Below are positions 9,806-51,557 of a stretch of 64,000 nt of DNA, one piece after another (position 1 is the stretch's first letter; every line of letters begins with the position of its first letter). The translations under genes and the position numbers were made by a program. The notes below the pieces were generated by a model. The model had not been told where the DNA came from. It did not search any database and was given only the letters and a program-made list of their open reading frames with translations. Origin of the DNA: Arthrobacter sunyaminii (GTDB lineage Bacteria; Actinomycetota; Actinomycetes; Actinomycetales; Micrococcaceae); assembly GCF_018866305.1 (NCBI RefSeq), contig NZ_CP076456.1, forward strand, positions 868,001-932,000. The letters are read 5' to 3'.

Positions 9806-10482
9806 CATACCCGGCCAAATACCCCACCCTGAACGAAACCACCCTCACCCCGGAAGCCCGCGCGATCCTCAAACGCATCATCAAAACAGCCTTTCCGCAT
9901 CCGGACTTCCCCGATGAAGCCTATGAGCGGATGACCAGCCGGATTGTCACGGAAGCCGACGCCTCCACCTGGTTCCGGGTAGTCCTGACCCAGGGGCTTA
10001 TTGCGCTGGGAGCCCAGTCGGAGGAACCGTTCCTGGACCTGACCGACGAGCGGGCGCTGGCCGTGCTGCGCCGGGTGGCCGACCTGGAGTTCTTCGGCTT
10101 CATCCGCCGCACCACGGTACTGAACCTCTACGACGATCCGCAGGTCTGGGAAGTGCTCGGCTACGAGGGACCGTCCTTTGACAAGGGCGGGTACCTGCAC
10201 CGCGGCTTCGCCGACCTGGACTGGCTGCCCACCCCCCGGATCGAAGCGCCGGACGGCTCCGTTCCCGACACCGGGCCGCTGCCGTATCCGGTGCTGCGGC
10301 CCGGCCAGTCAGGAACAGCCGGCACAGGCGCAGGCGGCAGCGAAACCACCGCCGGAAACGCCGACAGCGCCCCGGACCGCGATGCCGCGGCAGGTTCGGC
10401 GGCCGCCAGAGCGGCAGGACCGGCTCCGGAATCGGGTACCGGAGCCCAGGCATCCCGGCAGCGCGGAGGAGGAAGCAAATGA
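9802..10482 (+). CDS. gluconate 2-dehydrogenase subunit 3-like small subunit
   Basis: 226 residues. The first ~165 residues match the pattern of the gluconate 2-dehydrogenase subunit 3 family, the small partner that accompanies membrane or periplasmic GMC flavoprotein dehydrogenases (helical, with LTPEARAILKRII near the start and a GYEGPSFDKGGY segment). The last ~55 residues are a low-complexity Gly/Ala/Pro tail. Unlike many relatives it has no visible Tat signal, so the complex probably stays cytoplasmic or is carried by a partner. ATGA overlaps join it to both neighbours, and the next gene encodes the expected large subunit. Confidence 0.75.
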   Translation: MTYPAKYPTLNETTLTPEARAILKRIIKTAFPHPDFPDEAYERMTSRIVTEADASTWFRVVLTQGLIALGAQSEEPFLDLTDERALAVLRRVADLEFFGFIRRTTVLNLYDDPQVWEVLGYEGPSFDKGGYLHRGFADLDWLPTPRIEAPDGSVPDTGPLPYPVLRPGQSGTAGTGAGGSETTAGNADSAPDRDAAAGSAAARAAGPAPESGTGAQASRQRGGGSK

Positions 10483-12104: not shown

Positions 12105-12113
12105 GGTGCGGCT

Positions 12114-13301
12114 GTGAGTTCTTCCGCTGCCGGGGGCACCGCGGCCGGGAGTGCCGGGAGCGGGCCGCAGATCGCCGTGCTCGGCGCCGGGATCCTGGGG
12201 GTGTCCGCGGCGGTGCAGCTGCTGCGCGGCGGCGCATCCGTCACCCTGGTGACGGACGCGCATCCTGCCAGCGGCGCATCGGGTCGCTCCCTTTCGTGGT
12301 TGAACTCCGGCGGCGGCTATCCGCCGGAGTATCACCAGCTGCGGCTGGCCGGCATGGACCGTTACCGGACCCTGCTCGCGGAAAACCCTGACCTCGACTG
12401 GCTCCGCTTCGACGGCGGCGTGTACTGGGACGGCGGTGCGCTCGCGGACAGGTGCGAGGCGCAGCGGGACCGCGGATATGACGCACGGCTGGTTCCGGCG
12501 AGCGGCGTGGCCGGCGTGGCCCCCGGCCTGGACCCGGCGGCTCTGCCGGCGGAAGTGCTGTTCAATCCCGGCGAGGGCTGGGTGAGCCTGCCACACCTCA
12601 TCCGGCACCTGCTGGCAGAATTCGCGCTGCTCGGCGGAACCTTGGTCACCGCAGCGGGACCTGCCTCCGTGATCGTGGAAGGAGGCGCCGCCGTCGGGCT
12701 CCGCACTGAATCCGGGGAAGTGTGTCCGGCTGACGTGGTGCTGGTGGCCGCCGGTGCCGGCACTCCCGCCCTGCTTGATGGGCTGGGCGTGCAGCTGCAG
12801 GACGGATCGGATCTGGCCATGCTGGTGGTGACCGAGCCCAAGGCGCACGGCCTCAGGGCAGTGCTGAACACTCCGCGGGTATCCGTGCGGCCGCATCCGG
12901 GCTCCCGGCTCGCGATGGATTCCACCTGGTATCTGGATCAGATCACACCCAACGACGACGGCGGCTGGTCGGTGGATCCGCAGGTGGTGCTGGACCTGGT
13001 GGACGAGGCCTCGGCTCTGCTTGCCGGCCACCCGCGGCTGGTGGCACAGAGCTGGCGGATCGGGTTGAAGCCGGTGCCCGGCGACGGCCGGCCCGTGCTG
13101 GGGGAGCTGACCGGGCTGCCCGGATGCTACGTGGCGTTTACGCATTCCGGAGCGACTCTCGGGTTGATTGCCGGTGAGCTGCTGGCGCGGGAAATCCTCA
13201 GCGGACGGCGGCATCCGATGCTGGCTCCGTTCCGGCCGGAGCGGATGGCAGGCGACGTTCCGGTGCGGGCCGGGCACGCCGGGATCTTCGGCCAACTTTG
13301 A
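12114..13301 (+). CDS. FAD-dependent oxidoreductase, D-amino acid oxidase (DAO) family
   Basis: 395 residues. The dinucleotide-binding motif GAGILG lies at 24-29, preceded by a Ser/Gly-rich N-terminus that is probably disordered. The C-terminus has the GLKPVPGDGRPVLGEL and TLGLIAGELLAREI blocks typical of DAO/glycine-oxidase-like flavoproteins. GTG 12114 follows GAGGTG, nine bases after the GMC stop, so it belongs to the same operon. It could oxidise an amine or amino acid, but no residue pattern fixes the substrate. The mix of a zinc alcohol dehydrogenase, a GMC complex and a DAO enzyme suggests a pathway for an amino-alcohol or amino-polyol. Confidence 0.85.
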   Translation: MSSSAAGGTAAGSAGSGPQIAVLGAGILGVSAAVQLLRGGASVTLVTDAHPASGASGRSLSWLNSGGGYPPEYHQLRLAGMDRYRTLLAENPDLDWLRFDGGVYWDGGALADRCEAQRDRGYDARLVPASGVAGVAPGLDPAALPAEVLFNPGEGWVSLPHLIRHLLAEFALLGGTLVTAAGPASVIVEGGAAVGLRTESGEVCPADVVLVAAGAGTPALLDGLGVQLQDGSDLAMLVVTEPKAHGLRAVLNTPRVSVRPHPGSRLAMDSTWYLDQITPNDDGGWSVDPQVVLDLVDEASALLAGHPRLVAQSWRIGLKPVPGDGRPVLGELTGLPGCYVAFTHSGATLGLIAGELLAREILSGRRHPMLAPFRPERMAGDVPVRAGHAGIFGQL

Positions 13302-33209: not shown

Positions 33210-33373
33210 GCCAAGACAACGCCAATCTTCGGTCAGCTCAGCGAGTGGAGAGCGTCCGGAGAAGATACCTGCGCTCCGGCCCGCCCATTCCGAAGGGCTG
33301 AGCCAAGACAACGCCAATCTTCGGTCAGCTCAGCGAGTGGAGAGCGTCCGGAGAAGATACCTGCGCTCCGGCC
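33185..33373. repeat. 92-bp perfect tandem duplication across a convergent gene junction
   Basis: Positions 33185-33281 are identical to 33277-33373 (97 bases, period 92). The first copy holds the last codons of the DUF3817 gene; the second copy holds the last codons of the response regulator gene read on the other strand. Each copy has a GCTGAGC...GCTCAGC inverted repeat (33205-33211 with 33235-33241, and the same 92 bases later). The most economical reading is a recent slippage or unequal exchange event. Confidence 0.9.
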
Positions 33374-34010
33374 GCCCCGGCCCGTACCGCAGGTTCACCT
33401 CCACGCTTCCAATCTCGGCCAGGTACTCCAGATACCGGCGGGTACTTACCCTGGACATGCCCAGCATGTCAGCAGTTTCGGTGGAGGACAGATCCCCGTT
33501 CGCGTCCGTCAATGCGGCTTCGACCAAACGCAGGGTCTCCGCACTGCAGCCCTTGGGCAGCGGCACCTTGAGCGGCCGGCCGCTGCCGAACACCTGATCC
33601 ATATCCGTCTGTGTCACATTCCGCATGCCTGAGACCAACGGCTGATAAGTGAGCCGGTAATGCTCCAGCCGTTCGCGCAGATCTGCGCCCGTAAACGGCT
33701 TCATCAGATAGTGGACAATTCCGCCGCGCAGTGCCCGCCGCACCATGTCCGTTTCCCTGGCGGCACTGATGACGAGAACATCGAGCTCCGGGGCAACGTC
33801 CCGGAGCCGCTGCAGCAGGTCCAGGCCGTTGATGTCCGGCAGATGGATGTCCAGCAGCACCAGGTCCGGACGAAGCCTGACCACTTCATTCAGCGCAGCA
33901 GCCCCGGTGTGCGCGACGCCGACGGCTTGAAATCCCTCTGCCTGCTGGACAAATCCGGCGTGCACTTTGGCGACCATGAAGTCATCGTCAATGATGAGCA
34001 CTCTGATCAT
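33330..34010 (-). CDS. CitB/DcuR-type response regulator
   Basis: 226 residues. The receiver domain has the acidic pair D8-D9, phospho-acceptor D54 in LLDIHLP and the conserved lysine in LMKPF. The C-terminal helix-turn-helix (SSTETADMLGMSRVSTRRYLEYL) is of the CitB/DcuR type. It overlaps the histidine kinase gene by 23 bases and should activate the divergent tctCBA transporter genes. Three GAACACAA repeats upstream of tctC are its candidate binding sites. Its last codons lie in the second copy of the 92-bp tandem repeat. Confidence 0.92.
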   Translation of the reverse strand: MIRVLIIDDDFMVAKVHAGFVQQAEGFQAVGVAHTGAAALNEVVRLRPDLVLLDIHLPDINGLDLLQRLRDVAPELDVLVISAARETDMVRRALRGGIVHYLMKPFTGADLRERLEHYRLTYQPLVSGMRNVTQTDMDQVFGSGRPLKVPLPKGCSAETLRLVEAALTDANGDLSSTETADMLGMSRVSTRRYLEYLAEIGSVEVNLRYGPGRPERRYLLRTLSTR

Positions 34011-35646
34011 GGGTTATTCCCTTCTCCAGTGACGGTGCTTCCATGGGCAAGCGGGCGAAGAAGACGGCACCGTCCTCATTCCAGACCCGAACGTCACCTC
34101 CACGGCGCAGGCAGGCAAGTCTGGTGAGTGCCAGCCCGAAGCCCCGTCCGCCCAGTGTGGTGTCGCTTTTAGTCGTGAATCCCTGCCGGAAAATCTCGTC
34201 TGCAACGCCGGCGTCGATCCCGGGCCCCGAGTCTTTGACTGTGATCTCCAATGACCCTTCAGTCTCCAGAATCCGCACCCGGACCCGGGAATCCTGCTGC
34301 CCGGCGGCTGCGTCAATGGCGTTGTCCACGAGATTTCCGACGATGGTGGTGAGGTCCCGGGTGAGGCTTTCACCGGTGCGTCCAAGCCGGGAGTCCTGGT
34401 CCAGCTGCAACGCCACTCCGCGTTCAGCCGCCTGGCTGGTTTTCGCGATGAGGAGCGCGGCCAGGGTGGGGTCCTCGATGCAGGAGGTGATGCCCTGGTG
34501 AAGGCTGCTTCTGCTGTGACTAACCCCGTTCACGAACTTCACGACGTCGTCATATTCGTGCAACTGGATCAGTCCGGAAATGGTGTGCAGCTGGTTCGCG
34601 AACTCGTGCGTCTGTGCGCGGAGGGTTTCAGTGATCCTCTTAGTAGTGCCCAGCTCCGCCTTCAGCGAGGACAGCTCTGTACGATCGCGCAGCGTGGTGA
34701 CCGACCCCAGGGCACGCCCGCGGGAGGTCAGGGGTTTTCGGTTGAAAACCACTACACGGTCATTTACCAGGACCAGCCGGTCAGCTTCATCCTGTTTTTG
34801 GGTGAGAACATCATGCAGCACCGGTTCGATGTCCAGCTCTTTCAGGGTGCGTCCCACCGAATCCCGCGGCAAACCCAACAGGGTCCGGGCGCCGTCGTTG
34901 GCCAAGGTAATCCGGTGCTGGGTGTCCAAGGCCAGCACGCCTTCCTTCACCCCGTGAAGCATCGCTTCCCGGTGCTCCACCAGGGACGTGATTTCCTGCG
35001 GTTCAAGGCCCAGCGTCTGGCGTTTGACCCGTGCGGCCAGCAGCAGGGACCCCACCGTCCCCAGAACCCCGGCCAAGAAGAAATAAATCAGTGCGTTTGG
35101 GGCGGCGGTGCGCAGCCGTTCCCACGCTGAGGGGTACTCCATTCCCACGGCGGCGAGCCCCACGATGGCACCGTGGTCATCCATGACCGGCACGTGAGCG
35201 GAGGCGTAGGACTGACCGTCGATGATTGACAGCCCAGTCCAGGCCTGCCCGGCCAGAACAGTGCTGGCGCCGAGATCCAGCGGGTTTCCCACCTGCGCCG
35301 GGTCCGGGGACGTAAGAATTCGCAGGTCCCGGGTGGCCAGGATGACTGACTGCGCGCCGGAGACGGTGCGGACGGATTCAGCAACAGCGGGCAGGGCGGC
35401 ACCGATCTTTGGCTCAGCGCCGGGAACAAGGGCCCGTACCGCAGGCATGGATGCCAGGCTCTCGGCGGCGGACAGGGCTTTGCGGGACTCCACCCGCAGT
35501 GTAGAGGCAGCGGACTGGGCAATCGACAGGCCTACAACAGCAACCAGGACGGCGATGACGATGAGGAACTGGAGCCCCAGATACTGGGACGCCAGGGACA
35601 TCCTCCAGTGCGGCTTCTTTGCCGCGTCTTCGTGCTTTTTCAGCAC
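33988..35646 (-). CDS. CitA/DcuS-type sensor histidine kinase
   Basis: 552 residues from GTG 35646, which has GGAGGA seven bases upstream. A first membrane helix at about 25-45 and a second near 180-205 enclose an extracellular Cache-like sensor domain of about 135 residues. A PAS domain follows (LALDTQHRITLANDGARTLLG), then the phospho-acceptor histidine in QTHEFANQLHTISG and an ATPase domain (NLVDNAIDAA, DSGPGI, GRGFGLAL). This layout is typical of di- and tricarboxylate sensors. Placement beside tctCBA suggests it senses citrate or a related acid. A longer in-frame N-terminus was rejected as it runs through the promoter region. Confidence 0.93.
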   Translation of the reverse strand: MLKKHEDAAKKPHWRMSLASQYLGLQFLIVIAVLVAVVGLSIAQSAASTLRVESRKALSAAESLASMPAVRALVPGAEPKIGAALPAVAESVRTVSGAQSVILATRDLRILTSPDPAQVGNPLDLGASTVLAGQAWTGLSIIDGQSYASAHVPVMDDHGAIVGLAAVGMEYPSAWERLRTAAPNALIYFFLAGVLGTVGSLLLAARVKRQTLGLEPQEITSLVEHREAMLHGVKEGVLALDTQHRITLANDGARTLLGLPRDSVGRTLKELDIEPVLHDVLTQKQDEADRLVLVNDRVVVFNRKPLTSRGRALGSVTTLRDRTELSSLKAELGTTKRITETLRAQTHEFANQLHTISGLIQLHEYDDVVKFVNGVSHSRSSLHQGITSCIEDPTLAALLIAKTSQAAERGVALQLDQDSRLGRTGESLTRDLTTIVGNLVDNAIDAAAGQQDSRVRVRILETEGSLEITVKDSGPGIDAGVADEIFRQGFTTKSDTTLGGRGFGLALTRLACLRRGGDVRVWNEDGAVFFARLPMEAPSLEKGITHDQSAHH

Positions 35647-35757
35647 AGATTGTCCTCCGGTCCATAGACCACCGTTGGCGGCGGGCCTCCCTCTGTGTCC
35701 GGATGCCCGGTGCGAAGAAACTATACCGCTCACGCACTGCCGGGTCCGGATCTGCGT

Positions 35758-35792
35758 GAACACAATGAACACAACGTACTCAGAGAACACAA
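35758..35792 (+). promoter_or_regulatory. three GAACACAA direct repeats upstream of tctC
   Basis: GAACACAA occurs at 35758-35765, 35767-35774 and 35785-35792, with spacings of 9 and 18 bases. They lie between the divergent sensor kinase and tctC genes, about 70-100 bases before the tctC start. Direct repeats of this sort fit binding of a CitB-type response regulator dimer. Confidence 0.6.
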
Positions 35793-35860
35793 GAGTGACG
35801 GCACTCACATTAAATCCGTACCGTGATGAGGCTTGCACATCACTATGAGAAGAGGACCAA

Positions 35861-36874
35861 ATGCGCCCAATGAAGGGTTTGCGGCTGGCTGCAGTCGCCA
35901 CCGGACTTGTACTCGCGGCATCAGCCTGCGGAGTCACCGGCGGTGCCGAGACTGGAGAAGGCTCCGACACGTCGTCGTCCGCGGAAGCGTTAACCGGCCT
36001 GCGTATTCTCGTTCCCAATTCCCCGGGCGGCGGTTATGACACCACGGCGCGGGTGGCAGCCAAGGTCATGGATGAGACCGACGTCGCTACGGGCACCGAG
36101 GTGTTCAATCTTGCCGGTGCCGGCGGTACCGTGGGCCTGGCCCGCATGGTCAATGAAAAGGGCAACGCGGATCTCACCATGCTCATGGGTTTGGGGGTTG
36201 TGGGAGCCAGCTACACCAATGACTCCGAAGCCAAACTCACCGAAACCACCCCGTTGGCGCGCCTGATCGAAGAGCCCGGCGCCATCATGGTTTCCAAGGA
36301 TTCCCCCTATAACACCATTGATGATCTGGTCCAGGCCTGGAAGAAGGACCCGTCCTCCATCGCGGTGGGCGGAGGGTCCTCGCCCGGCGGACCCGACCAC
36401 CTGCTTCCCATGCAGCTGGCTGACACCGTTGGCATCAATCCGGCAGAGGTGAACTTCGTTTCCTACGACGGCGGCGGCGATCTCCTCCCGGCGATCCTGG
36501 GCAACAAGCTGGGCTTCGCGGCCTCCGGCGCCGGTGAGTACCTCGACCAGATCAAGACCGGCGAGATCCGGGTCCTGGCCACGAGCGGCGAAGAGCGGCT
36601 CGAGGGCGTGGACGCTCCCACACTGACGGAGTCCGACATTGATCTGGTCTTCAGCAACTGGCGCGGCATCGTGGCGCCTCCCGGAATCGACGACGCTGAA
36701 CGTGAGCAACTGGTTGCCGCACTGGAGCAGATGCATGGCACCGAGGAATGGCAGGAAGCGCTGACCACCAACGGGTGGAGCGACGCGTTCATCACCGGTG
36801 ATGAATTCACCTCCTTCCTCACGGAGCAGGACCAGCGGGTCTCCGACGTGCTGTCCAAGCTTGGGTTGGCATGA
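35861..36874 (+). CDS. tctC: tripartite tricarboxylate transporter substrate-binding lipoprotein
   Basis: 337 residues. The signal peptide ends with lipobox AASAC (C23). The mature protein begins with the TctC-type LRILVPNSPGGGYDTTAR block, which contributes to the carboxylate site. It captures a tri- or dicarboxylate outside the membrane and delivers it to TctAB. AAGAGGA precedes the ATG, and the stop overlaps tctB by ATGA. The true substrate (citrate, tartrate, another acid) cannot be fixed. Confidence 0.93.
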   Translation: MRPMKGLRLAAVATGLVLAASACGVTGGAETGEGSDTSSSAEALTGLRILVPNSPGGGYDTTARVAAKVMDETDVATGTEVFNLAGAGGTVGLARMVNEKGNADLTMLMGLGVVGASYTNDSEAKLTETTPLARLIEEPGAIMVSKDSPYNTIDDLVQAWKKDPSSIAVGGGSSPGGPDHLLPMQLADTVGINPAEVNFVSYDGGGDLLPAILGNKLGFAASGAGEYLDQIKTGEIRVLATSGEERLEGVDAPTLTESDIDLVFSNWRGIVAPPGIDDAEREQLVAALEQMHGTEEWQEALTTNGWSDAFITGDEFTSFLTEQDQRVSDVLSKLGLA

Positions 36875-37374
36875 GCCAACAGATCAGCCGGCTCAAGGGC
36901 CGCTCCGAGCTGGGCATGGCCCTCCTGCTGGGAGTGGTCGGAGCTGTTGTCATCTGGGACGCCTCAACACTGAATGTCTCCTATTCAAACTCGGATCCTG
37001 TGGGCCCAAAAACCCTGCCGTACATTGTGGGCGGTCTACTGCTGGTCTGCGCCGCCCTGCTCACCGTGCAGGTTCTGAGGGGCGGCCACGGCGAGGTAGA
37101 GGGTGGAGAGGATATCGATCTGACGCACGGCACGGATTGGCGAACGGTTGTTCCCCTGATTGCCGCGTTCATTGTGAATATTCTCCTCATCGACACCCTC
37201 GGCTGGGTTATATCCGGCACGCTGCTCTTCTGGGGCAGCGTCTGGGCACTGGGCAGCCGGCACTATGTGCGTGACGGCATAGTGTCACTGGTCCTCGCCC
37301 TGCTCACCTTTTACGGTTTCTACCTCGGCCTGGGCATCAAACTCCCCGCCGGCGTCCTGGAAGGGGTGCTCTGA
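36871..37374 (+). CDS. tctB: tripartite tricarboxylate transporter small membrane subunit
   Basis: 167 residues with four predicted membrane helices and a charged loop between helices 2 and 3, the standard TctB layout. It has little sequence conservation in the family; the assignment rests on size, topology and position between tctC and tctA. Its start overlaps the tctC stop and its own stop abuts the tctA start. Confidence 0.88.
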
Positions 37375-39032
37375 TGGATAGTTTCAATCTCCTGATGTCC
37401 GGGTTCGCGACCGCAGCCACCCCCATGAACCTGCTGTATGCGTTCATCGGGGTACTCCTCGGAACGGCTGTTGGCGTGCTGCCCGGCATCGGACCGGCCA
37501 TGGCCGTGGCCCTGCTGCTGCCCGTGACCTACGGCATGGAACCCACGAGCGCCTTCATCATGTTCGCCGGCATCTACTACGGCGGCATGTACGGCGGTTC
37601 CACCACGTCCATCCTGCTCAACACTCCGGGTGAATCCTCGACCGTCATCACGGCGATCGAAGGACACAAAATGGCCAAGAGCGGCCGGGCGGCACAGGCG
37701 CTGGCCACCGCCGCCATCGGCTCCTTTGTTGCGGGCACCATTGGCACGGCGCTTCTGGTGGCGTTTGCACCTCTGGTGGTCAAATTCGCCGTTAGCCTCG
37801 GGGCGCCCAGCTATCTGGCAATCATGGTGCTGGCGCTGCTGGCGGTCACTGCCGTCCTGGGAAGCTCCAAGCTGCGGGGCTTTGCCTCACTTGGCCTCGG
37901 CCTGGCCATTGGACTGGTGGGCATGGATCCGGTCACAGGCCAGCAGCGGCTGATCTTTGGTTTGCCGCTGCTGGTGGACGGACTCGACATCGTGGTGGTG
38001 GCAGTGGCGATCTTCGCTGTCGGTGAAGCCCTGTGGATCGCTGCGCACCTGCGCCGGACCGCCATGCACGTGATACCCGTCGGCCGGCCGTGGATGGGGA
38101 AGCAGGACTGGAAACGGTCGTGGAAGCCCTGGCTCCGCGGCACCGCCTTTGGCTTCCCGTTCGGAGCACTGCCGGCAGGCGGAGCCGAGATCCCCACCTT
38201 CCTTTCCTACGTCACCGAAAAGAAGCTCTCTAAGCACCCTGAGGAATTTGGCCATGGGGCTATTGAGGGTGTTGCCGGACCGGAAGCGGCCAACAACGCA
38301 GCCGCAGCCGGAACCCTGACACCCATGCTGGCCCTCGGCCTGCCGACCAACGCCACGGCCGCTGTCATGCTGGCCGCGTTTGTGCAGTACGGCATCCAGC
38401 CCGGACCGCTCTTGTTTGAGAGTGAACCTCAGCTCGTCTGGGCCCTGATCGCGAGCCTCTTCATCGGCAATACCCTGCTGCTGCTGATCAACTTGCCGCT
38501 GGCACCCATGTGGGCAAAGCTGCTGCGGCTGCCGCGCCCCTACCTGTACGCCGGCATTCTCTTCTTTGCCACCCTGGGCGCGTATGCGGTGAACCTGCAG
38601 GCGTTTGACCTGATGATCCTGCTGGTGCTGGGCCTGCTGGGCTTTGCCATGCGCCGGTTCGGGTATCCGATCCTGCCGCTGGTGATCGGGCTGATTCTTG
38701 GGCCGCGGGCCGAGGGACAGCTGCGCAAATCGCTGCAGCTGTCCGGCGGCGACATCTCCGGACTGTGGAACGAACCGATCGCCGTCGTGGTCTATGCGAT
38801 TGCAGCGGTGATCCTGGTGTGGCCGCTCGTTTTGAAGCTGTGGCACCGCAGCCACCCGAAACCCCTGCTGCCTGTCTTGTCCGAGGACAGCACGGGGTCC
38901 GTCGCAGTGGGACCCCGTGACCCTGCCGGACAGTCAGACGAATCCGGGGCAGTGGCAACAGCGCCGGTTTCCCGCGGGCGGCGCACCGCCCGGCCTTTTA
39001 CTGACGACGAGCGCGGAGAGGACAAGGCATGA
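37374..39032 (+). CDS. tctA: tripartite tricarboxylate transporter large membrane subunit
   Basis: 552 residues with about twelve helices. Family hallmarks are [17 protein letters not shown] near residue 26, [21 protein letters not shown] near residue 65 and the second PGE-like block around [10 protein letters not shown]. The hydrophilic C-terminal ~60 residues (Ser/Pro/Arg-rich) are longer than usual. It is the channel of the secondary, ion-driven carboxylate importer. The stop overlaps the usp gene by ATGA. Confidence 0.94.
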
Positions 39033-42008: not shown

Positions 42009-42148
42009 GTAGGCGTCAACAAGGCCCGCAACGGGGTTTATTCCTCAGCACCCTGATGTTTCATGTGGCGGGGAGGCGACCGGCGGCTGTAGGGACGAGC
42101 GTGGGGCATCCCGAAATAAGTACGATTCCTGAGACAGGATGGTTGACT

Positions 42149-42176
42149 CACAATGTGGGTTCGTGTTCATACTGTG
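42149..42176. promoter_or_regulatory. paired IclR-type operator upstream of the CoA-transferase gene
   Basis: CACAATGTG (42149-42157, a perfect CACA-N-TGTG dyad) and CATACTGTG (42168-42176, seven of nine matches) are 19 bases apart, about two helical turns. The same pair with the same 19-base spacing occurs upstream of the ABC transporter at 45363-45390. TTGACT at 42143-42148 could be a -35 box. Confidence 0.65.
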
Positions 42177-42245
42177 GGAGCGCATCGAATGTACTCTCAT
42201 CCGGCGTCATCATGATCCTTCGTCTCTTCCTTAAGAAAGGGCATT

Positions 42246-43493
42246 GTGGCTTCCACCCATCAGGCCGCGCCGCTGAGAGGTATCCGTGTCCTCGAGCTCG
42301 GTAACTATATCGCCGCCCCTACAGCAGGTCGGCTCCTTGCCGACTTCGGAGCCGAGGTGATCAAGATCGAGCGGCCCCGAACCGGTGATGAAATCAGGAA
42401 CTGGCGTCTAGGGTCGGGCACCACATCAATGCTGTATCGAACGATAAACCGCAACAAGAAGTCCATGGTGGTGGACCTCCGGACTGAAGAAGGTCGGCGC
42501 TGCGTCCTCGAACTGGTGGAGCAGTGCGACATAGTGCTGGAGAATTTCCGTCCCGGAACCCTTGAGAAATGGGGTCTTGGCCCGGCGGACCTGGAAGCGG
42601 CAAAACCAGGCATCATCGTCACCAGAATCTCGGCATTTGGCCAGACCGGTCCCATGTCCTCACGTCCAGGCTTCGCTGCCGTAGCCGAAGCCTACGGGGG
42701 ATTCAGGAATCTTGTTGGCGATGCGGATCGTCCCCCGGTCCGCGTGGGTGTATCCATCGGCGACTCGATCGCCGGACTCTATGCGGCCTTCGGATCAGTC
42801 ATGGCGCTCTTCGCCCGCCAGCGGGAACAAGGCGTGGCGCGACCACCAATCGACGACCGAATCATAGATGTCGCACTAAATGAGGCCATGCTCTCCGTCA
42901 TGGAATCACTGATACCCGACTACAGTGCCTACGGGCTACACCGTGAACGCACCGGCGGCCGGATGGAGGGAATCGCCCCGTCCAATGCCTATATCTGCGC
43001 TGATGGGGCCAGCATTGTGGTTGCGGGAAACGGGGACGGAATCTTCAAGCGGTACATGCACACCATCGGGCGCCCGGATCTCGCTAGCGATCCGGGCCTC
43101 GAATCCAATGCCCAACGCTGGTTGCAGCGCGAGGAACTGGATGAGGCGATAGGTACTTGGACGGCGCAGCACACGGCCGAGGATGCGCTGGCGCAGTTGG
43201 AACAGGCAGGAGTCCCTTCCGGGCCCATCTACACTGCGGAAGACATCGTCAATGACGAGCAGTACAGGGCCCGAAATATGATTCAGCATTTGGACGTCTC
43301 GGACGGCGAAAAAACCTTCCACGATGTCGCATTCCCCGGAATTACCCCCGTCATCGGCGGAGCATCACTGCCGATCCGGAACCTGGGCCCGGACCTCGGT
43401 GCCGATACGTATGACATCCTCGTCGGGCTGCTCGGCAAGACACCGGTGGAGGCCAGCGCTTTCATCGAGCAAACGGAACTGGAGAAAACATGA
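42246..43493 (+). CDS. class III CoA-transferase (CaiB/BaiF family)
   Basis: 415 residues. The N-terminal LRGIRVLELGNYIAAPTAGRLLADFGAEVIKIE block and the SIGDSIAGLYAAFG block with the likely catalytic aspartate D173 are typical of formyl-CoA/carnitine-type transferases, which pass CoA from one acyl-CoA to a carboxylic acid. It would activate the acid imported by the nearby ABC transporter. GTG 42246 follows AAGAAAGGG. The stop overlaps the lyase gene by ATGA, so the two enzymes are co-translated and probably act in sequence. Confidence 0.93.
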   Translation: MASTHQAAPLRGIRVLELGNYIAAPTAGRLLADFGAEVIKIERPRTGDEIRNWRLGSGTTSMLYRTINRNKKSMVVDLRTEEGRRCVLELVEQCDIVLENFRPGTLEKWGLGPADLEAAKPGIIVTRISAFGQTGPMSSRPGFAAVAEAYGGFRNLVGDADRPPVRVGVSIGDSIAGLYAAFGSVMALFARQREQGVARPPIDDRIIDVALNEAMLSVMESLIPDYSAYGLHRERTGGRMEGIAPSNAYICADGASIVVAGNGDGIFKRYMHTIGRPDLASDPGLESNAQRWLQREELDEAIGTWTAQHTAEDALAQLEQAGVPSGPIYTAEDIVNDEQYRARNMIQHLDVSDGEKTFHDVAFPGITPVIGGASLPIRNLGPDLGADTYDILVGLLGKTPVEASAFIEQTELEKT

Positions 43494-44428
43494 ATCCCGC
43501 CGGTAACAGAATAGTTCTCCGCGATGTCACCCTGCGCGACGGACTTCAGCTTACGGGCGGAATCCTGCCGGTGGAAAGGAAAGCACAAATTGTGCGGGAC
43601 CTTCTGGCTGCCGGGGTTACCGCCATCGAGGTGGGCTCCATGGCGCGCCCCGACTTGGTCCCGTCCATGGCCAACACGGTCGAGCTTCTGACTGAACTTA
43701 CTCCGGAGGAACGTGAGCACTGCTACGTCTGGGTCGCGACGCCGGGTAACGTCCGCAGGGCGGTGGCTGCAGGAGCAAGGCACCTGCAGTACTGCCTGAG
43801 CGTCACCGACGCGCACAACCTGGAAAACATTGGACGGACAACGGAGGCGAGCATGGATGCCCTGCCGGAAGCCGTTGAGCTCGCTCATGCAGCCGGAGCG
43901 ACCATCCAGCTGTGCCTGGCCACGTCCTTTACCTGTCCCTTCGACGGAAATGTCGACCCGGAGCGCGTACTTGAACTGGTGCTGGACCCCAGGGCCGAGG
44001 GCACGGACGGGGTCGTCATCTGCGATACGCTGGGGCAGGCATTCCCCGGCGACGTGGAGGCACTGATTAAAAAGGTTCGCGGCACTGGTGTCTTCGCGGA
44101 AATCGTCTTCCACGGACATGACACGTGGGGGATGGGAGTGGCCAACGCGATGGCCGCAATCAGCTCAGGTGCCACCATGGTTGATGGTGCCCTCGGAGGA
44201 CTTGGCGGATGCCCGTTCGCTCCGGGCGCTTCGGGAAACACTGCCACGGAAGACCTGCTCTTCGCGCTCCGCCCTGCATGGCTGACAACGGAAGCGTTTG
44301 CCGCGGTGGTACGCCTGGGCGAGAAGGTCACGGCAGAGGTCGATGAACCGAGCCGCTCAAAAGCCGCACAGGGAGCACGGTCGGAAGCCAAGGCGTTTAG
44401 CTGGGTTCTCGAGGGCGAGGGCCGTTAG
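43490..44428 (+). CDS. hydroxymethylglutaryl-CoA lyase-like enzyme
   Basis: 312 residues. All catalytic positions of HMG-CoA lyase are readable: R16-D17 in VTLRDGLQ, E47 in IEVGS, D179 in ICDTLG, H208 and H210 in FHGHDTWG, C241 in GLGGCPFAPG and N250 in GASGN. It should cleave a 3-hydroxy-3-methyl (or related) acyl-CoA into acetyl-CoA plus a ketoacid. Coupling to a CoA-transferase and an acid importer suggests degradation of a free 3-hydroxyacid such as 3-hydroxy-3-methylglutarate rather than leucine breakdown. The stop codon overlaps the convergent iclR stop. Confidence 0.9.
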   Translation: MNPAGNRIVLRDVTLRDGLQLTGGILPVERKAQIVRDLLAAGVTAIEVGSMARPDLVPSMANTVELLTELTPEEREHCYVWVATPGNVRRAVAAGARHLQYCLSVTDAHNLENIGRTTEASMDALPEAVELAHAAGATIQLCLATSFTCPFDGNVDPERVLELVLDPRAEGTDGVVICDTLGQAFPGDVEALIKKVRGTGVFAEIVFHGHDTWGMGVANAMAAISSGATMVDGALGGLGGCPFAPGASGNTATEDLLFALRPAWLTTEAFAAVVRLGEKVTAEVDEPSRSKAAQGARSEAKAFSWVLEGEGR

Positions 44429-45231
44429 GAGGTCGCATCGCGAGGGGACGCGGCATCCTGGGGATGCCTGCCGCCAAGCATCCTGGTGATCTGTTCGGCC
44501 GCTGCCAACAGGTCCTCAACCCACTGTTCGCACACATCCAGCGGCATGCGCAGCGTCGGCCCCATGACGGTGACGGCTCCAACGATGTCACCCTGGGAAT
44601 CGAATACCGGTGCAGACAGGCCACTGGCACCGGACTGCCTTTCGCCCGTGGTGATCGCATAGCCGTCCCGCCGGGTCTGAATGACGGCTTCCTCCAGTAG
44701 TTTCCGGTCCGTGATGGTGGTTTCAGTGAGTTGGTCCAGGGACTCCGTGACCATTTCATCCATGAGTCCTGCGGTCCAGGCGAGCAGCACGCGGCCGGCT
44801 GATCCGGCATGGAGGGGCAGGATCCTGCCAACCTTCATTTCGCGGCGCAGCATGTGCCGGGTTTCCGCCATGGCAACGCAGACACGGTAGTGCATAGAGG
44901 ATTCAAAAAAACAGACGGTTTCACCCAGTCGGTCCCGCAGATCCGCCAGCACCGGCTTCAGGATCTGTAGTCGATCGAGGTCGTGGGTGGCCGGCGCGGC
45001 CCAGAAAGCCATCTTCAGCCCCACCCGGTAATGATCTCCCGTCCGGTCTAGGAATCCATTTGCCACCAGATTCCCCACCAGGCGCTGAACGGTCGACGTC
45101 GGGAGCCCGGTCGCCTCCCGGATGTCCGTGAGCGTCAGCTCGGGGCGGCGCAGCGAGAAGGCATCGAGAATGTCGCTGATCTTCCTCAGTACAAGCAAAG
45201 GGGCAGGGGCGGACGATCCGGTAGCAACCAT
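44425..45231 (-). CDS. IclR family transcriptional regulator
   Basis: 268 residues. The N-terminal winged helix (LTDIREATGLPTSTVQRLVGNLVANGF) is followed by the IclR effector domain with GRILPLHAGSAGRVLLA and SAPVFDSQGDIVGAV blocks. It lies between the CoA-transferase/lyase pair and the ABC transporter genes, and it is the only regulator in the block. Paired CACAATGTG sites in front of both flanking units mark it as the likely controller of both. The effector is probably the imported acid or its CoA ester. Confidence 0.93.
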   Translation of the reverse strand: MVATGSSAPAPLLVLRKISDILDAFSLRRPELTLTDIREATGLPTSTVQRLVGNLVANGFLDRTGDHYRVGLKMAFWAAPATHDLDRLQILKPVLADLRDRLGETVCFFESSMHYRVCVAMAETRHMLRREMKVGRILPLHAGSAGRVLLAWTAGLMDEMVTESLDQLTETTITDRKLLEEAVIQTRRDGYAITTGERQSGASGLSAPVFDSQGDIVGAVTVMGPTLRMPLDVCEQWVEDLLAAAEQITRMLGGRHPQDAASPRDATS

Positions 45232-45362
45232 AGACCCATCCTAGGCACGCCGGCGGCCGCCCAGTCCAACAGTTCAGTTGCGCATAAGGCGGGGAGCGGG
45301 CAGGGCCGAAACCTCGATTTATAACGCTGTGCAGATTGCCCACTTACTGTTAGCCTGTCTTT

Positions 45363-45390
45363 CACCATGTGAGACATAGCCCACAATGTG
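45363..45390. promoter_or_regulatory. paired IclR-type operator upstream of the ABC transporter
   Basis: CACCATGTG (45363-45371) and CACAATGTG (45382-45390) are 19 bases apart, as at 42149-42176. A -10-like TAGCCT at 45351-45356 lies just upstream, so the sites fall at or after the transcription start, as expected of a repressor. The region also separates the divergent iclR gene, so it may serve autoregulation. Confidence 0.65.
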
Positions 45391-45406
45391 GTTCAGGAGA
45401 TGAGCA

Positions 45407-46249
45407 ATGACGCATCCTGCACGAGCACAACCGTCACCGTATGCGGTTGACCTGAGCGCCTGCACGAAGGAGTTCGCAACTCCCGGCGGCGGGTCGTATT
45501 TCGCAGTTCGGGACATAGACCTGAAGGTCGAGCCCGGCAGGTTCGTATCGATCGTCGGTCCAACCGGCTCGGGAAAATCGACCATTCTGAACATGGCAGC
45601 GGGACTTCTTTCACCGACGTCGGGCACTGTGCGGAGCTTTGGTGAACCCGTGAATGGTGTCAACCGCCGTGCGTCCTACATGTTCCAGCAAGATGCCCTG
45701 CTTCCGTGGAAATCGGTGATCGACAACGTCAGCCTTGGCCTGACAATGGCGGGCGTTCCGAAAGTGGAGGCGCGCTCGGAATCTCTGCGCTGGCTCGAAA
45801 AGGTCGGCATGAGGAAGTTCGCCGATCACTATCCGCACCAGCTCAGCGGCGGGATGAAGAAACGTACGGCAATAGCGCAGGCGTGGATTGTCGACCCCGA
45901 CATCCTCCTCATGGACGAACCCTTTTCGGCTCTCGACGTCCAAACCCGCCAGATTATGGAGAATGAACTTCTTCAGCTGTGGTCAGAGTCAGGAAAAGCG
46001 GTTGTGTTTATCACCCACGACCTTGATGAGGCCATCGCGCTGTCGGACGAGGTGATCATCCTTGGTGCCGGACCGGGAAGCACTGTGGTCGGAAGCTATG
46101 ACATCACCATTCCCCGGCCCCGCGATCTGCTGGATATTAGGGACGATCCGAAATTCGTGGAAATCCACCGTGAGATCTGGGGTCGCCTGAAAGTTGAGGT
46201 CTCAAAGACTTACGCATCAGCCCAGAACGACGAAAGTGATGTTGCATGA
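45407..46249 (+). CDS. ABC transporter ATPase, NitT/TauT (SsuB-like) family
   Basis: 280 residues. Walker A GPTGSGKST at 51-59, the Q-loop MFQQDALLPW, signature LSGGMKKR, Walker B ILLMDEPFSALD and the H-loop THDLDEA are present. The family drives import of nitrate, sulfonates, taurine, thiamine precursors or aromatic/aliphatic acids. ATG 45407 follows AGGAG; an out-of-frame ATG lies at 45400. It overlaps the permease gene by ATGA. Confidence 0.95.
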   Translation: MTHPARAQPSPYAVDLSACTKEFATPGGGSYFAVRDIDLKVEPGRFVSIVGPTGSGKSTILNMAAGLLSPTSGTVRSFGEPVNGVNRRASYMFQQDALLPWKSVIDNVSLGLTMAGVPKVEARSESLRWLEKVGMRKFADHYPHQLSGGMKKRTAIAQAWIVDPDILLMDEPFSALDVQTRQIMENELLQLWSESGKAVVFITHDLDEAIALSDEVIILGAGPGSTVVGSYDITIPRPRDLLDIRDDPKFVEIHREIWGRLKVEVSKTYASAQNDESDVA

Positions 46250-47082
46250 CTCTGGCCCCAGCCCGTCGTAACGCCGGCACCGCTCCGCAACGCCGCCCCG
46301 CCAGGAAGAATCTCGACGCGTCAGGGTTATCCATTCGCCTGGGACAACTGGCCATCACCATCACTGTGCTCGGTTCGTGGGAGCTGCTGGCCCGGGCCGG
46401 CATCATTGATGAATTCTTCTTCCCGCTTCCTTCCGACATCCTCGTGACGGTCTGGGAATGGATATCAACGGGTTACGTTTTTCCGCACCTGTGGGTGACT
46501 ATGCAGGAAGCGATTCTGGCCTTCATAACCGGAGCCGCAGCCGGCCTGTTCCTGGGCTTCCTGCTCGCACGCGTCACCGTCCTGGAACGGCTCCTGGACC
46601 CCTTTCTTAAGGCCTTCAATGCCCTGCCCCGCGTGGTGCTGGCGCCCATCTTCCTGCTGTGGTTCGGGCTGGGCATTTGGTCAAAAGTCGCATTCGGATT
46701 CACGCTTGTTTTCTTCATCGTTTTCTTCAACACCCTCGAAGGCGTCAAGAGCGTTGACCGCGTCCTTGTTAATAACGCCAGGATGCTCGGAGCCAGCGAG
46801 AAGCAGCTGCTCCGCCACGTTTTTATTCCCAGCGCGCTCACCTGGATCTTTTCGAGCCTGCACATCAGTGTTGGATTCGCTATCACCGGTGCTGTGGTCG
46901 GCGAGTATCTTGGTGCCTCTGCTGGCGTCGGCTATGCCATTGCTCAGGCCCAGGGTGTCTTCGATACCCAAGGTGTATTTGCCGGAATGTTCATTCTCAT
47001 GATCGTTGTACTCATCATCGACATCCTCGTGAACCGGTTGGAGCGTCACCTCCTCCGCTGGCGTCCTAACCAGTCTCAGTAA
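46246..47082 (+). CDS. ABC transporter permease, NitT/TauT family
   Basis: 278 residues with six predicted helices. The EAA loop that contacts the ATPase is seen as NNARMLGASEKQLLRHVFIPSA. It forms the membrane channel, as a homodimer, for the importer coded by the flanking genes. The start overlaps the ATPase stop by four bases. Confidence 0.94.
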   Translation: MTLAPARRNAGTAPQRRPARKNLDASGLSIRLGQLAITITVLGSWELLARAGIIDEFFFPLPSDILVTVWEWISTGYVFPHLWVTMQEAILAFITGAAAGLFLGFLLARVTVLERLLDPFLKAFNALPRVVLAPIFLLWFGLGIWSKVAFGFTLVFFIVFFNTLEGVKSVDRVLVNNARMLGASEKQLLRHVFIPSALTWIFSSLHISVGFAITGAVVGEYLGASAGVGYAIAQAQGVFDTQGVFAGMFILMIVVLIIDILVNRLERHLLRWRPNQSQ

Positions 47083-47137
47083 CTTCATCGCGTCAAACCC
47101 GGTCTAATCACTATCCGCACCTCGAAGGGGAAACTCC

Positions 47138-48214
47138 ATGAATACCGTTGAAAACAGGCGCCGAAGCCTCAGCCGGGGAATCCGGGGTTCTGCGTTTTTG
47201 GCCGGATTGGCCCTGGCGGTTTCCGCCTGCGGCACGCCGTCTTCGGCTCCGCCAGGGCAGGCAGGCGGCGATGAGGGCGGGGAAGGCCAGAAAGTGGTCA
47301 TCGGCATTGGCGGCCAAACGCTGCTGACTTACCTTCCAACGACCCTGGCCGACGAGTTGGGCTACTTCGAAGAGGAGGGTCTCGACGTTGACTTGCAGGA
47401 CCTTCAGGGCGGATCCAAGGCACTGACCGCCATGATCGGAGGAAGCACCGAGGTCACGAGCGGTTACTACGAGCACACGATCCAGATGCAGGCAAAAAAC
47501 CAGCCGGTTAAGGCGTTCGTCAACATGAACCTCTCCTCCGGACTCGCTCTGGTGGTGTCGGAGAAGAATAAGGACACTATCAAGTCTGTTGCCGATCTGA
47601 AGGGCAAAAACGTCGGAGTCACGGCGCCGGGGTCTTCAACGGACATGTTCGTGAAGTACCTGCTGTCCCAAAACGGCATGGAGATTGACGCCGCAGCCGT
47701 CTCCGCCATAGGTGCCGGTTCCTCCGCGGTTGCCGCAGTGGAGCAGGGCCAAGTGGACGCAGCAATCATGCTGGAACCGGACATAACCGTGCTGGAAAAG
47801 CGGATCGGGGTGAAGCCGACAATCCTGGAGGACGTCCGGACCCCGGAGGGGCTGCAGGAAGTGTTCGGCACCGATGCATGGCCGTCCTCAAGCCTGTATG
47901 CCACCGAGGCCTGGTTGGAGAAGAATCCCGAGACGGCGGAAAAACTGGCGACAGCGATCAGGCGCACCCTTGAGTATGTCGCCGAGCACTCCGGGGAGCA
48001 GATTGCCGCCGAAATGCCCGAGACATTCGCCGGAGGAGACCCGTCTCAGTACGCAGCCGTCATTGAGGAACTAAAACTGACCCTCAGCAAAGACGGCGTT
48101 TTCACCGAGTCGGGTGCTGAAGCAGTTCTCGAGACCCAACGGATAGCCAACCCCGAGGTGGGGGAAGCGGAGATAGATCTCTCCCAGACGTATACGAATG
48201 ATTTTCTCAACTAA
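47138..48214 (+). CDS. ABC transporter substrate-binding lipoprotein, NitT/TauT family
   Basis: 358 residues. The signal peptide ends at lipobox AVSAC (C31), followed by a Gly/Pro-rich linker. The TTLADELGYFEEEGLDVDLQDLQGG block is the usual opening of the SsuA/TauA/NMT1-like fold, and DLKGKNVGVTAPGSSTD is the second recognisable block. It binds the substrate outside the membrane. Co-regulation with a CoA-transferase and HMG-CoA-lyase-like enzyme points to a carboxylic acid rather than a sulfonate. GAAGGGGAAA precedes the ATG. Confidence 0.93.
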   Translation: MNTVENRRRSLSRGIRGSAFLAGLALAVSACGTPSSAPPGQAGGDEGGEGQKVVIGIGGQTLLTYLPTTLADELGYFEEEGLDVDLQDLQGGSKALTAMIGGSTEVTSGYYEHTIQMQAKNQPVKAFVNMNLSSGLALVVSEKNKDTIKSVADLKGKNVGVTAPGSSTDMFVKYLLSQNGMEIDAAAVSAIGAGSSAVAAVEQGQVDAAIMLEPDITVLEKRIGVKPTILEDVRTPEGLQEVFGTDAWPSSSLYATEAWLEKNPETAEKLATAIRRTLEYVAEHSGEQIAAEMPETFAGGDPSQYAAVIEELKLTLSKDGVFTESGAEAVLETQRIANPEVGEAEIDLSQTYTNDFLN

Positions 48215-48743: not shown

Positions 48744-51557
48744 TTACCGCGTGGCTTCGGCCAGGTACTCCAGCACATGACGGTAGGTGTGGCCCGTGGC
48801 CTTGGACATGCCGATCTCACAGGTCCGGTTCACGGAGGCATAGGCAGCGAACTCGCGTTCGTTGATTTCCGCCGCCTGCTTGTCCGTGGCTGAAGCCGTC
48901 AGCTCCGGATGCAGCAGCCCGCGGTCACCCGCAAAGGCGCAGCAGCCCCAGCTTGGCGGCACAAACACTTCCTCCGCCGCAGCCCGGGCAATCGCCTGCA
49001 GGGCATCGTTGGCCCCGAGCTGGGTGGAAGAACACGTGGGATGCAGGGCCATCGAGGGCAGCTTCCGGGTCACGGTCAGCTGCGGCAGGACGGTGTCCCG
49101 GACGAAGTCCACTGAATCGATGAACTGCAGCCCGGGATAGTCCGGGCTTTCTCCGGCCAGCCGTTTCATGGTGTCCAGGCCCTCGGTGCAGGAGGCCGCG
49201 TCGCAGACCACGGGCAGCGCGCCGCCGCCGGTGGCTTCCCACAGGTTCGCGAGCACGCGTTCGGTCATGACCGCATAGCCCTTGCCGTAGCCCTTGGACT
49301 TCCAGGGCGTGCCGCAGCACAGGTCTTCGATGCCCGCCGGAATCCGCACACCGATGTCCGCGCGCCCGCACAGCTCCAGGAAGGCCGCGGAGACGCCCTC
49401 CCCTTTGCCGGCCGGACCGAACATGGTGCCGATGCAGGCCGGGAAGTAGACGGCCACGGCGGCCGGGTCCTCCCGCGGTGTGCGTTTGGTGCCGCCGGCG
49501 GGCAGCACGGTTTCATAGGCGGGAACGTTTTCGGTGCCGGCCACGGCGCGGGCGACGGCGGTGGCCGCCTTGGGCAGCAGCGCCGGCATGGCGTTGGCCA
49601 GGCTCAGTGCCTTGCCGCCGGCCACCGTGACGGTGGACCAGTGCTCGGCGGCGGTCTTCCATCCGGCATCGGCAACTGCATTGGCGTTTTCCTTGCGCAG
49701 CCGGCGCACCAGGTCGCCGGTGTTAATCAGCACCGGGCACGCCGTGACGCACATGCCGTCCGCAGCGCACGTCTGGACGCCGTCGTACTCATAGTCCTTG
49801 CGCAGTTCCTTGGCCAGGACAGTGTCCCCGCGGGCTTCGGCGGCAGCGATTTCCCGGCGCAGCACAATGCGCTGGCGCGGCGTGGTGGTGAGGTCCTTGC
49901 TGGGGCAGACCGGCTCGCAGTAGCCGCACTCCACGCAGCGGTCCACCTCGGCTTCAACTGTGGGGGCCACCTTGAGGTCTGCGATGTAGGACGCCGGGTC
50001 ATCGTTGATGATGACGCCGGGGTTGAGCAGGTTCGGTGCATCAACCAGGGCCTTCAGCTCGCACATGACCTCATACAGCTCGTCGCCGTACTGCCGGCGG
50101 ACAAAGGGGGCCATGATCCGGCCGGTGCCGTGCTCGGCCTTCAGCGAGCCGCCGTTGTCCAGCACCAGGTCCACCATCTCCTCGGTAAACGCCTGGTAGC
50201 GGGCCAGTTCCACCGGATCATCGAAGCGCTCGTTGAGCATGAAGTGGATGTTGCCGTCCTTGGCGTGGCCGAAGATGACCGAGTCCTGGTAGCGGTGCTC
50301 GGCGAAGAGCCGTGACAGTTCCTTGCAGGTGGAAGCCAGTGACGGCACCGGAACCACAATGTCCTCCAGCAGGGCGTTGGTGCCCGAAGGACGGGCGCCG
50401 GCCACAGTGGTGTAAAGGCCCTTGCGCAGGTGCCACATGGCAGCGCGGTCCTTGGCGTTGTCCGTCATGGCAAACGGAGCCGCCAGCGCCAGCGATTCAA
50501 AAAGGCCCCGCGAGGCTTCGCGCTTATCGGCCAGCTCTTCCGCGGTGCGTCCCTGGTGCTCCACCAGCAGAGCGGCATGGGAGACGATGTCCAGATTCCG
50601 CAGTTCCGGCGGAGCGGCGGGATCCGCCGCGGCCACGCGCAGCGACGTCGAGTCCATCAGTTCGATAGTGGCCAGTCCGGAGGCCACCAGCTCGGGAAGG
50701 GCGGTGGCGGCACGGTCCAGCGAGTCGAAGAACATCAGCCCGGTGGCCACCTTGGGCAGCGCCGGAATGGTGCGGAAGGTTGCTTCGGCCACGAAGCCCA
50801 GGGTTCCCTCGCTGCCGACCATGAGGTGGGTCAGGATGTCCACCGGACTTTCGTAGTCCAGGAACGCGTTCAGGCCGTAGCCCATGGTGTTCTTCATGGA
50901 GAACAGCCGCTCGATGGTGGCCACGGAGTGCGGGTTGGCCACAATGCGTCCGCGCAGGCGCAGCAAACCTTCGAAAAGTTCCGGTTCCAGGGTCCGCAGC
51001 TTGGTCTCGGCGTCGGGGGCGGCAGTGTCGATCACGGTGCCCGAGGGCAGCACCATCACCATGGACTCGATGGTCTGGTAGGTGTTGAATTCCGTGCCGC
51101 AGGCCATGCCTGAAGAATTGTTGGCGACGACGCCGCCAATGGTGCAGGCGATTTCCGACGCCGGGTCGGGGCCAAGTTTGCGTCCGTGGGCTGCCAGCCG
51201 GGAGTTGACCGCGCGCACCGTGGCGCCGGGCTGCACCCGGACCCGGCCACCGCCGTCGAGCACCTCGATGCCGCGGAAATGCTGGCGGGTGTTAATCAGC
51301 AGGCTGTCGCTCTGGCTTTGGCCGGACAGGGAGGTGCCGCCGGAGCGGAAGGTGGCCGGAATCCCCAGTTCACGGCTGCGGCGCAGGAGGGAGCCGACGT
51401 CGTCTGCCGTGCGGGGCGTGGCCACCGCTTCCGGAATCAGCAGGTAGTGCGAGGCATCGTGGGCCATTTTGCGGCGGTCGATGTCCCGGGTGCTGATGTC
51501 CTTTGTGCCAAGCGCCGCAAAGGACGCCGCTGTCGGAACTGCTGTTTGAACGCTCAT
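48744..51557 (-). CDS. FAD-binding and Fe-S-binding oxidoreductase, D-lactate dehydrogenase (Dld-II) type
   Basis: 937 residues. An N-terminal FAD-binding domain (STRDIDRRKMAHDASHY; TFRSGGTSLSGQSQSD; IGGVVANNSSGM) and FAD-oxidase C-terminal domain are fused to two ferredoxin-like clusters (CVECGYCEPVCP and CAADGMCVTACP) and CCG-type domains (DLCCGTPWKSKGYG; WGCCAFAGDRG). This is the layout of bacterial D-2-hydroxyacid/D-lactate dehydrogenases of the Dld-II/YdiJ type, which feed electrons to quinone. Placement with a lactate permease, an LldR-type regulator and lutABC supports D-lactate as substrate, while D-2-hydroxyglutarate is an alternative. Confidence 0.88.
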   Translation of the reverse strand: MSVQTAVPTAASFAALGTKDISTRDIDRRKMAHDASHYLLIPEAVATPRTADDVGSLLRRSRELGIPATFRSGGTSLSGQSQSDSLLINTRQHFRGIEVLDGGGRVRVQPGATVRAVNSRLAAHGRKLGPDPASEIACTIGGVVANNSSGMACGTEFNTYQTIESMVMVLPSGTVIDTAAPDAETKLRTLEPELFEGLLRLRGRIVANPHSVATIERLFSMKNTMGYGLNAFLDYESPVDILTHLMVGSEGTLGFVAEATFRTIPALPKVATGLMFFDSLDRAATALPELVASGLATIELMDSTSLRVAAADPAAPPELRNLDIVSHAALLVEHQGRTAEELADKREASRGLFESLALAAPFAMTDNAKDRAAMWHLRKGLYTTVAGARPSGTNALLEDIVVPVPSLASTCKELSRLFAEHRYQDSVIFGHAKDGNIHFMLNERFDDPVELARYQAFTEEMVDLVLDNGGSLKAEHGTGRIMAPFVRRQYGDELYEVMCELKALVDAPNLLNPGVIINDDPASYIADLKVAPTVEAEVDRCVECGYCEPVCPSKDLTTTPRQRIVLRREIAAAEARGDTVLAKELRKDYEYDGVQTCAADGMCVTACPVLINTGDLVRRLRKENANAVADAGWKTAAEHWSTVTVAGGKALSLANAMPALLPKAATAVARAVAGTENVPAYETVLPAGGTKRTPREDPAAVAVYFPACIGTMFGPAGKGEGVSAAFLELCGRADIGVRIPAGIEDLCCGTPWKSKGYGKGYAVMTERVLANLWEATGGGALPVVCDAASCTEGLDTMKRLAGESPDYPGLQFIDSVDFVRDTVLPQLTVTRKLPSMALHPTCSSTQLGANDALQAIARAAAEEVFVPPSWGCCAFAGDRGLLHPELTASATDKQAAEINEREFAAYASVNRTCEIGMSKATGHTYRHVLEYLAEATR

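Follow-up and report, generated by a model that had tools for sequence, protein, structure and literature searches.

The enzyme pair closest in kind to the genes described here comes from Chloroflexus, where adjoining genes encode an (R)-citramalate CoA-transferase (EC 2.8.3.20) and an (R)-citramalyl-CoA lyase (EC 4.1.3.46) that resembles 3-hydroxy-3-methylglutaryl-CoA (HMG-CoA) lyase; we know of no dedicated importer or IclR operator for this pair. A second route, the itaconate/methylsuccinate cluster, contains an (S)-citramalyl-CoA lyase of the CitE family. The two enzymes of the first pair are described as acting in turn on (R)-citramalate (PMC8307300), and the Pseudomonas/Cupriavidus itaconate/methylsuccinate cluster (ict, ich, ccl, mcd, mmgE) as using a citramalyl-CoA lyase to form acetyl-CoA and pyruvate (PMC12290011, PMC9875883). 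The Pseudomonas lyase is reported to be (S)-specific; an engineered strain did not use (R)-citramalate, and itatartarate (2-hydroxy-2-hydroxymethylsuccinate), a fungal itaconate derivative, is metabolized no further by engineered P. putida or by P. aeruginosa (PMC9875883). Here, a group of six genes in a stretch of 64,000 nucleotides from the Arthrobacter sunyaminii genome (contig NZ_CP076456.1, positions 868,001 to 932,000; hereafter the window) was compared with these systems. The genome is a single contig of 3.9 Mb. The six genes, encoding a class III CoA-transferase, an HMG-CoA-lyase-like lyase, an IclR regulator and a NitT/TauT-type ATP-binding cassette (ABC) importer of three components, are one real, coherent and conserved unit.

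The module resembles the EC 2.8.3.20/EC 4.1.3.46 pair in kind, as its class III CoA-transferase gene adjoins that of an HMG-CoA-lyase-like lyase. The module also resembles the itaconate/methylsuccinate cluster in combining a CoA-transferase with a lyase that would yield acetyl-CoA and an oxoacid, but unlike that cluster it contains no hydratase. The lyase shares its fold family and catalytic residues with the HMG-CoA lyase of leucine catabolism (EC 4.1.3.4) but belongs to a subfamily that scores under the family model and has a CoA-transferase and an importer as partners. Similarly, the importer has the ATPase, permease and NMT1-fold binding protein of SsuABC, TauABC, NrtABCD and ThiXYZ, but unlike the first three it lies below the sulfonate, taurine and nitrate cut-offs and beside CoA-activating catabolic enzymes. 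No account of the six-gene set was found in the open-licence PMC literature, as judged by titles and the beginnings of abstracts. The original prediction, made from the DNA letters alone, had named no described system with this gene set, which holds for the six genes together but not for the enzyme pair. The chemistry of the pair is of a known kind, and the dedicated NitT/TauT-type importer and the shared IclR operator seem to be new.

The computed gene content and linkage, together with the conservation of catalytic residues and the operator-like sites, lead us to infer a pathway in which the ABC importer would take up a free acid and the CoA-transferase would convert it into its CoA thioester, with an abundant acyl-CoA, probably succinyl-CoA, as the donor. 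The lyase would then cut the resulting 3-hydroxyacyl-CoA in a metal-dependent retro-Claisen reaction to acetyl-CoA and a 2-oxoacid (acetyl-CoA and pyruvate if the acid is (R)-citramalate), and IclR would govern the two operons by way of the paired palindromes. The original prediction of a module that imports, activates and cleaves an acid under an IclR switch of its own is well supported by synteny in five gene orders and by an operator-like site; the genes very probably form a functional unit of this kind. Our preferred but tentative reading is that the module serves the catabolism of one free organic acid, that its substrate most likely falls in the class of 2-hydroxy-2-substituted succinates (malate-like diacids), and that (R)-citramalate is the best single candidate. 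The chances that the substrate is a malate/citramalate-type diacid are roughly even, and (R)-citramalate itself is a possible but somewhat doubtful substrate. If the reading is true, the hydroxy-diacid CoA-transferase/lyase route gains a dedicated importer and regulator, and a substrate class can be assigned to two subfamilies, that of the binding protein and that of the lyase, the latter being mostly named "hydroxymethylglutaryl-CoA lyase".

The association of importer and enzyme pair was analyzed within 295 genomes of the family to which the window belongs. Relatives of the binding protein with at least 70% identity are present in 12 genomes, and a close lyase is found in 10 of these 12 compared with 41 of the 283 remaining genomes (Fisher p = 5e-7, an optimistic value as the genomes are related). 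Importer and pair are neighbors in eight of the 12 genomes, and in three others (G123, G039, and G009) the importer and an IclR gene adjoin a transferase/lyase pair that is only distantly related to the window's (44% and 34–35% identity), leaving a single genome (G017) without an adjoining pair. When the search was widened to 396 genomes sampled across the order (E up to 1e-90), three more importers with 61–69% identity were found, all of them beside the pair. Overall, the binding protein (at least 61% identity) stands beside the pair in 14 out of 15 genomes, with 11 close orthologues and 3 distant paralogues of the pair, so that the predicted co-occurrence of enzymes and transporter is borne out. 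The association is seen in five gene orders and therefore survives rearrangement; in six loci (L119, L134, L146, L160, L216, and L217) importer and pair appear to form one operon. Importer, LysR, CoA-transferase and lyase genes also occur together on a plasmid of Paracoccus denitrificans PD1222 (43% identity for the binding protein and 30–31% for the enzymes). A short-chain dehydrogenase and a LysR gene are found near the importer in L198, L199, and L201, together with a major facilitator superfamily (MFS) transporter in the first two, and homologues of these importer neighbors are found near the pair in L125.

The binding protein carries a cysteine (Cys31) that is invariant in 31 of 31 sequences, presumably the lipoprotein cysteine, and its AlphaFold model (mean pLDDT 87) has PDB entry 3qsl as best match (39% identity). 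The model confirms the fold, with matches to Thi5, TauA, SsuA, and NrtA and to the uncharacterized 3qsl, and since this best match carries no function the structure does not reveal the ligand. These fold matches would suit an importer of sulfonates, nitrate or a vitamin precursor that is unrelated to the pair and merely adjoins it, as would the occurrence of distant binding-protein relatives without the pair. Among distant plasmid importers, three of 232 records were inspected and only the Paracoccus importer has the pair, which counts against the preferred reading; the Thermus importer lies beside a tripartite ATP-independent periplasmic (TRAP) transporter and the Agrobacterium importer beside a 4-oxalomesaconate tautomerase. 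A further 18 family genomes contain binding-protein relatives of only 29–37% identity, and the two that were inspected (L203 and L204) lie beside DcuS-like sensor kinases (scoring below cut-off), again without the pair. However, an unrelated importer is very improbable given the 14 of 15 close importers beside the pair in five gene orders, the six apparent single operons, a palindrome common to most loci, and the scores below cut-off: the binding protein reaches 92.0 of 163.5 bits for SsuA_fam and 39.5 of 304 for the taurine binding protein, and the ATPase 206.8 of 357 for taurine and 201.5 of 292 for nitrate. Uptake of sulfonate or nitrate was rejected on the linkage and these scores.

Table 1. 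Genes and operator-like boxes of the module, in window positions.
Feature	Position	Strand	Support
Class III (CaiB/BaiF) CoA-transferase	42246-43493	+	PF02515, 364 bits over residues 10-388
HMG-CoA-lyase-like retro-Claisen lyase, divergent subfamily	43490-44428	+	PF00682, 133 bits
IclR-family transcriptional regulator	44425-45231	-	PF01614, 106.2 bits, and PF09339, 46.6 bits, both above cut-off
ABC importer ATPase, NitT/TauT type	45407-46249	+	PF00005, 110 bits
ABC importer permease	46246-47082	+	PF00528, 112 bits
ABC importer substrate-binding protein, NMT1/SsuA fold	47138-48214	+	PF09084, 104 bits
Tandem operator-like boxes, 19 bp apart, before CoA-transferase	42148-42158 and 42167-42177		1 and 2 mismatches to CCACANTGTGG
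Tandem operator-like boxes, 19 bp apart, between iclR and ABC operon	45362-45372 and 45381-45391		weak (3 mismatches) and perfect (0 mismatches)

The palindrome to which IclR presumably binds, CCACANTGTGG, was derived from the window itself, where paired boxes of this type precede both the importer operon and the transferase operon. With up to one mismatch, it is present upstream of the ATPase gene in 15 out of 16 loci bearing this ATPase (18 loci given, window included), compared with 0.19 expected from shuffled sequence; several of the loci are close relatives and the counts are therefore not independent. A box within one mismatch is found upstream of the transferase in 3 of 17 loci (0.12 expected), and in L198, L199, and L201 a 19-bp box pair before the transferase either lies in the gap that separates the transferase from iclR or overlaps the iclR end. 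Upstream of the ABC genes, no palindrome within one mismatch is present in L055, L216, and L217, giving 15 of 18 loci overall (the IclR proteins of L216 and L217 are only 39–41% identical to that of the window). It occurs at 10 exact places in the genome versus 3 for the reversed pattern, so that the motif alone is not specific, and no excess was found within the window. Neither is it enriched before genes for GntP permeases (1 of 38 with a box, 0.58 expected), and an operator at these genes was not supported. A variant, CCATAATATGG, is present before several GntP genes.

To compare the surroundings of the enzyme pair, the lyase was searched at 1e-40 in the 295 family genomes, giving matches in 62: 51 with a close orthologue (52 matches with 59–100% identity, two of them partial) and 11 with matches of only 36–39% identity. 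The window's own match and the two partial matches were set aside, and the remaining 49 loci were scanned within 6.5 kb, using a single query for each gene at E values up to 1e-15 and, for the ABC genes, identity thresholds of 50–65%. The transferase adjoins the lyase on the same strand in all 49 loci, which exceeds chance. It is also close upstream of the lyase in 76 of a further set of 80 lyase loci (the four without transferase being L049, L063, L066, and L075), beside each of the five loci inspected from the 36–39% class, and adjoining in all four of the plasmid-borne relatives inspected out of 140 records.

All eight HMG-CoA lyase catalytic residues (R16, D17, E47, D179, H208, H210, C241, and N250) are present in the window lyase, so that this part of the original prediction is confirmed together with the six genes, their ATGA coupling and their domains. 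None of them varies across 127 of 127 aligned relatives (five distant relatives included, some rows being copies of one genome), and they line up with HMG-CoA lyases of known structure, which are the nearest solved relatives of the lyase. Residue D173 of the transferase, which we take to be the catalytic aspartate of the CoA-transferase family, is invariant in 129 of 129 aligned rows, and the solved relatives of this enzyme include succinate-hydroxymethylglutarate CoA-transferase (179 bits). The solved relatives of both enzymes are presumably human. These matches and the catalytic residues would suit the substrate that had been placed first originally, 3-hydroxy-3-methylglutarate, which would be taken up, activated to HMG-CoA and cleaved to acetyl-CoA and acetoacetate. 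Furthermore, the importer-linked paralogous lyases of L198, L199, and L201 (279–292 bits) and of Paracoccus (343 bits) score above the 246 bits that the HMG-CoA lyase model (NF004283/PRK05692) sets as its cut-off, a result that raises the weight of 3-hydroxy-3-methylglutarate and lowers that of a malate-like diacid. Against this, the window lyase (191.3 bits) and the four close orthologues scanned (193–198 bits) remain under the cut-off, the subfamily shows replacements relative to the aligned HMG-CoA lyases in two signatures (RDGLQLT and HGHDTWG, in about 95% of the 127 rows), and neither a thiolase nor an enoyl-CoA hydratase was found within 6.5 kb of the pair in any of the 49 loci (one query each), although an HMG-CoA lyase does not strictly need such neighbors. 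The model is also broad, as it accepts at 252 bits the lyase of L165, a neighbor of a citrate-symporter-family gene, and its cut-off is thus not decisive; the missed cut-off was given up as a decisive argument, as the importer-linked paralogues pass. Catabolism of 3-hydroxy-3-methylglutarate is unlikely and not favored, but it is a serious rival because of these paralogues.

Citramalate had been named among the alternatives, and the recurrent neighbors of the pair and of the importer do point to malate-like 2-hydroxy-diacids, a class within which the individual substrate is a matter of inference. L006 and L011 have an aconitase-family gene after the importer, L162 has one immediately in front of the pair, and in Sphingobium, where the lyase also has the HGHDT-GVAN motif, LeuC-LeuD lie directly behind the pair. 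Aconitase-type hydratases make (R)-2-hydroxy-diacids, and hydration of citraconate gives (R)-citramalate. The distant pair of L165 is found with a 2-hydroxyacid dehydrogenase and an isocitrate/isopropylmalate-dehydrogenase-family gene in addition to the citrate-symporter-family gene. Together, the aconitase-type neighbors, the L165 context and the DcuS-like sensors near the wider importer relatives favor a malate-like diacid. Within this class, (R)-citramalate was given first place because EC numbers exist for an enzyme pair of this type (PMC8307300) and because one lyase relative among the 120 matches listed, 67% identical, is named "(R)-citramalyl-CoA lyase", a record name that is probably an automatic transfer.

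Several observations weigh against this choice. The other named lyase relatives among these matches are labeled generically, for example as hydroxymethylglutaryl-CoA lyase, and citramalate appears in the name of none of the 120 transferase relatives listed. An aconitase-type gene is found near the pair in only one of the 49 family loci, an acetyl-CoA acetyltransferase gene is located 5 kb behind the Sphingobium lyase, and Nocardia contains transferase/lyase pairs without this importer. A glycerate kinase gene lies near the pair in seven of the 49 loci and does not fit with pyruvate as a product. The last observation leads to a different second product, hydroxypyruvate or glyoxylate, which would be converted to glycerate if the substrate carried a hydroxymethyl group or no methyl group (catabolism of itatartarate or (R)-malate). 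A 2-hydroxyacid dehydrogenase of the glyoxylate/hydroxypyruvate-reductase type is encoded on the same strand near the pair in 13 of the 49 loci, and in L148 its gene overlaps that of the glycerate kinase in an operon-like manner (both families being assigned from one representative each); the nearly invariant lyase motifs across the subfamily suggest a single substrate. However, both genes are absent from the window module and from most relatives, and the dehydrogenase representative passes no cut-off, so that such a product is rather unlikely. More specifically, the subfamily might represent a bacterial itatartarate route of import, CoA transfer and cleavage to acetyl-CoA and hydroxypyruvate, followed by the reductase and the glycerate kinase, which adjoin the lyase in some relatives; we regard this as a long shot.

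With respect to the remaining genes near the pair in the 49 loci, an IclR homologue was found in 41, a GntP permease in 31 and the ABC trio in seven, and an AMP-ligase query gave 13 matches of which eight are strong. Two candidates were considered and rejected. The GntP permease is common enough for a general importer, yet the GntP matches of the window genome are only 25–34% identical and are located elsewhere. An aconitase partner in the window genome was likewise not supported, as the matches are only 30–42% identical and lie elsewhere.

Within the module, ATGA overlaps are found at the transferase/lyase junction (43490) and at the ATPase/permease junction (46246), and the stop codons of the lyase and IclR genes overlap. 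The GC content of the module is 60.1% compared with 65.4% for the window. Among the genomes sampled from the genus of the window, of which at least 20 gave no match, the lyase was found beyond the window genome only in G194 and the binding protein in none. The lower GC content and the near-absence from the genus suggest that the module may have been acquired by lateral gain. The closest named lyase relatives among the matches listed belong to Arthrobacter with the exception of one mislabeled record. The whole module is also present, with 84–91% identity, on WNZI01000005.1 (L007), titled Vibrio cholerae strain 35D, which is probably a mislabeled or contaminated Arthrobacter-like assembly.

The pair recurs in Nocardia loci (L013–L085), often behind a TauD-type dioxygenase, which might produce the hydroxy acid, and an endonuclease-IV-like gene, which is probably a housekeeping gene. 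A second lyase/transferase locus (L202; G000:C1:816000-830000, 2809–12356) is located in the same genome as the window and encodes an MFS transporter, an acyl-CoA dehydrogenase, MmgE/PrpD, an HMG-CoA-lyase-like protein, a CoA-transferase, an enoyl-CoA hydratase, an aldehyde dehydrogenase and an IclR regulator. Its lyase-like protein has a longer N-terminus and a glutamate in place of the aspartate of the RD motif, and the locus is similar to itaconate/methylsuccinate clusters, from which its lyase family sets it apart. In the window, a DcuS/DcuR-like two-component system adjoins a TctC-TctB-TctA tripartite tricarboxylate transporter (33330–39032), 3 kb upstream of the module. Behind the module, the minus strand encodes a 937-amino-acid FAD-oxidase/iron-sulfur fusion (48744–51557), presumably of the D-2-hydroxyacid dehydrogenase kind.

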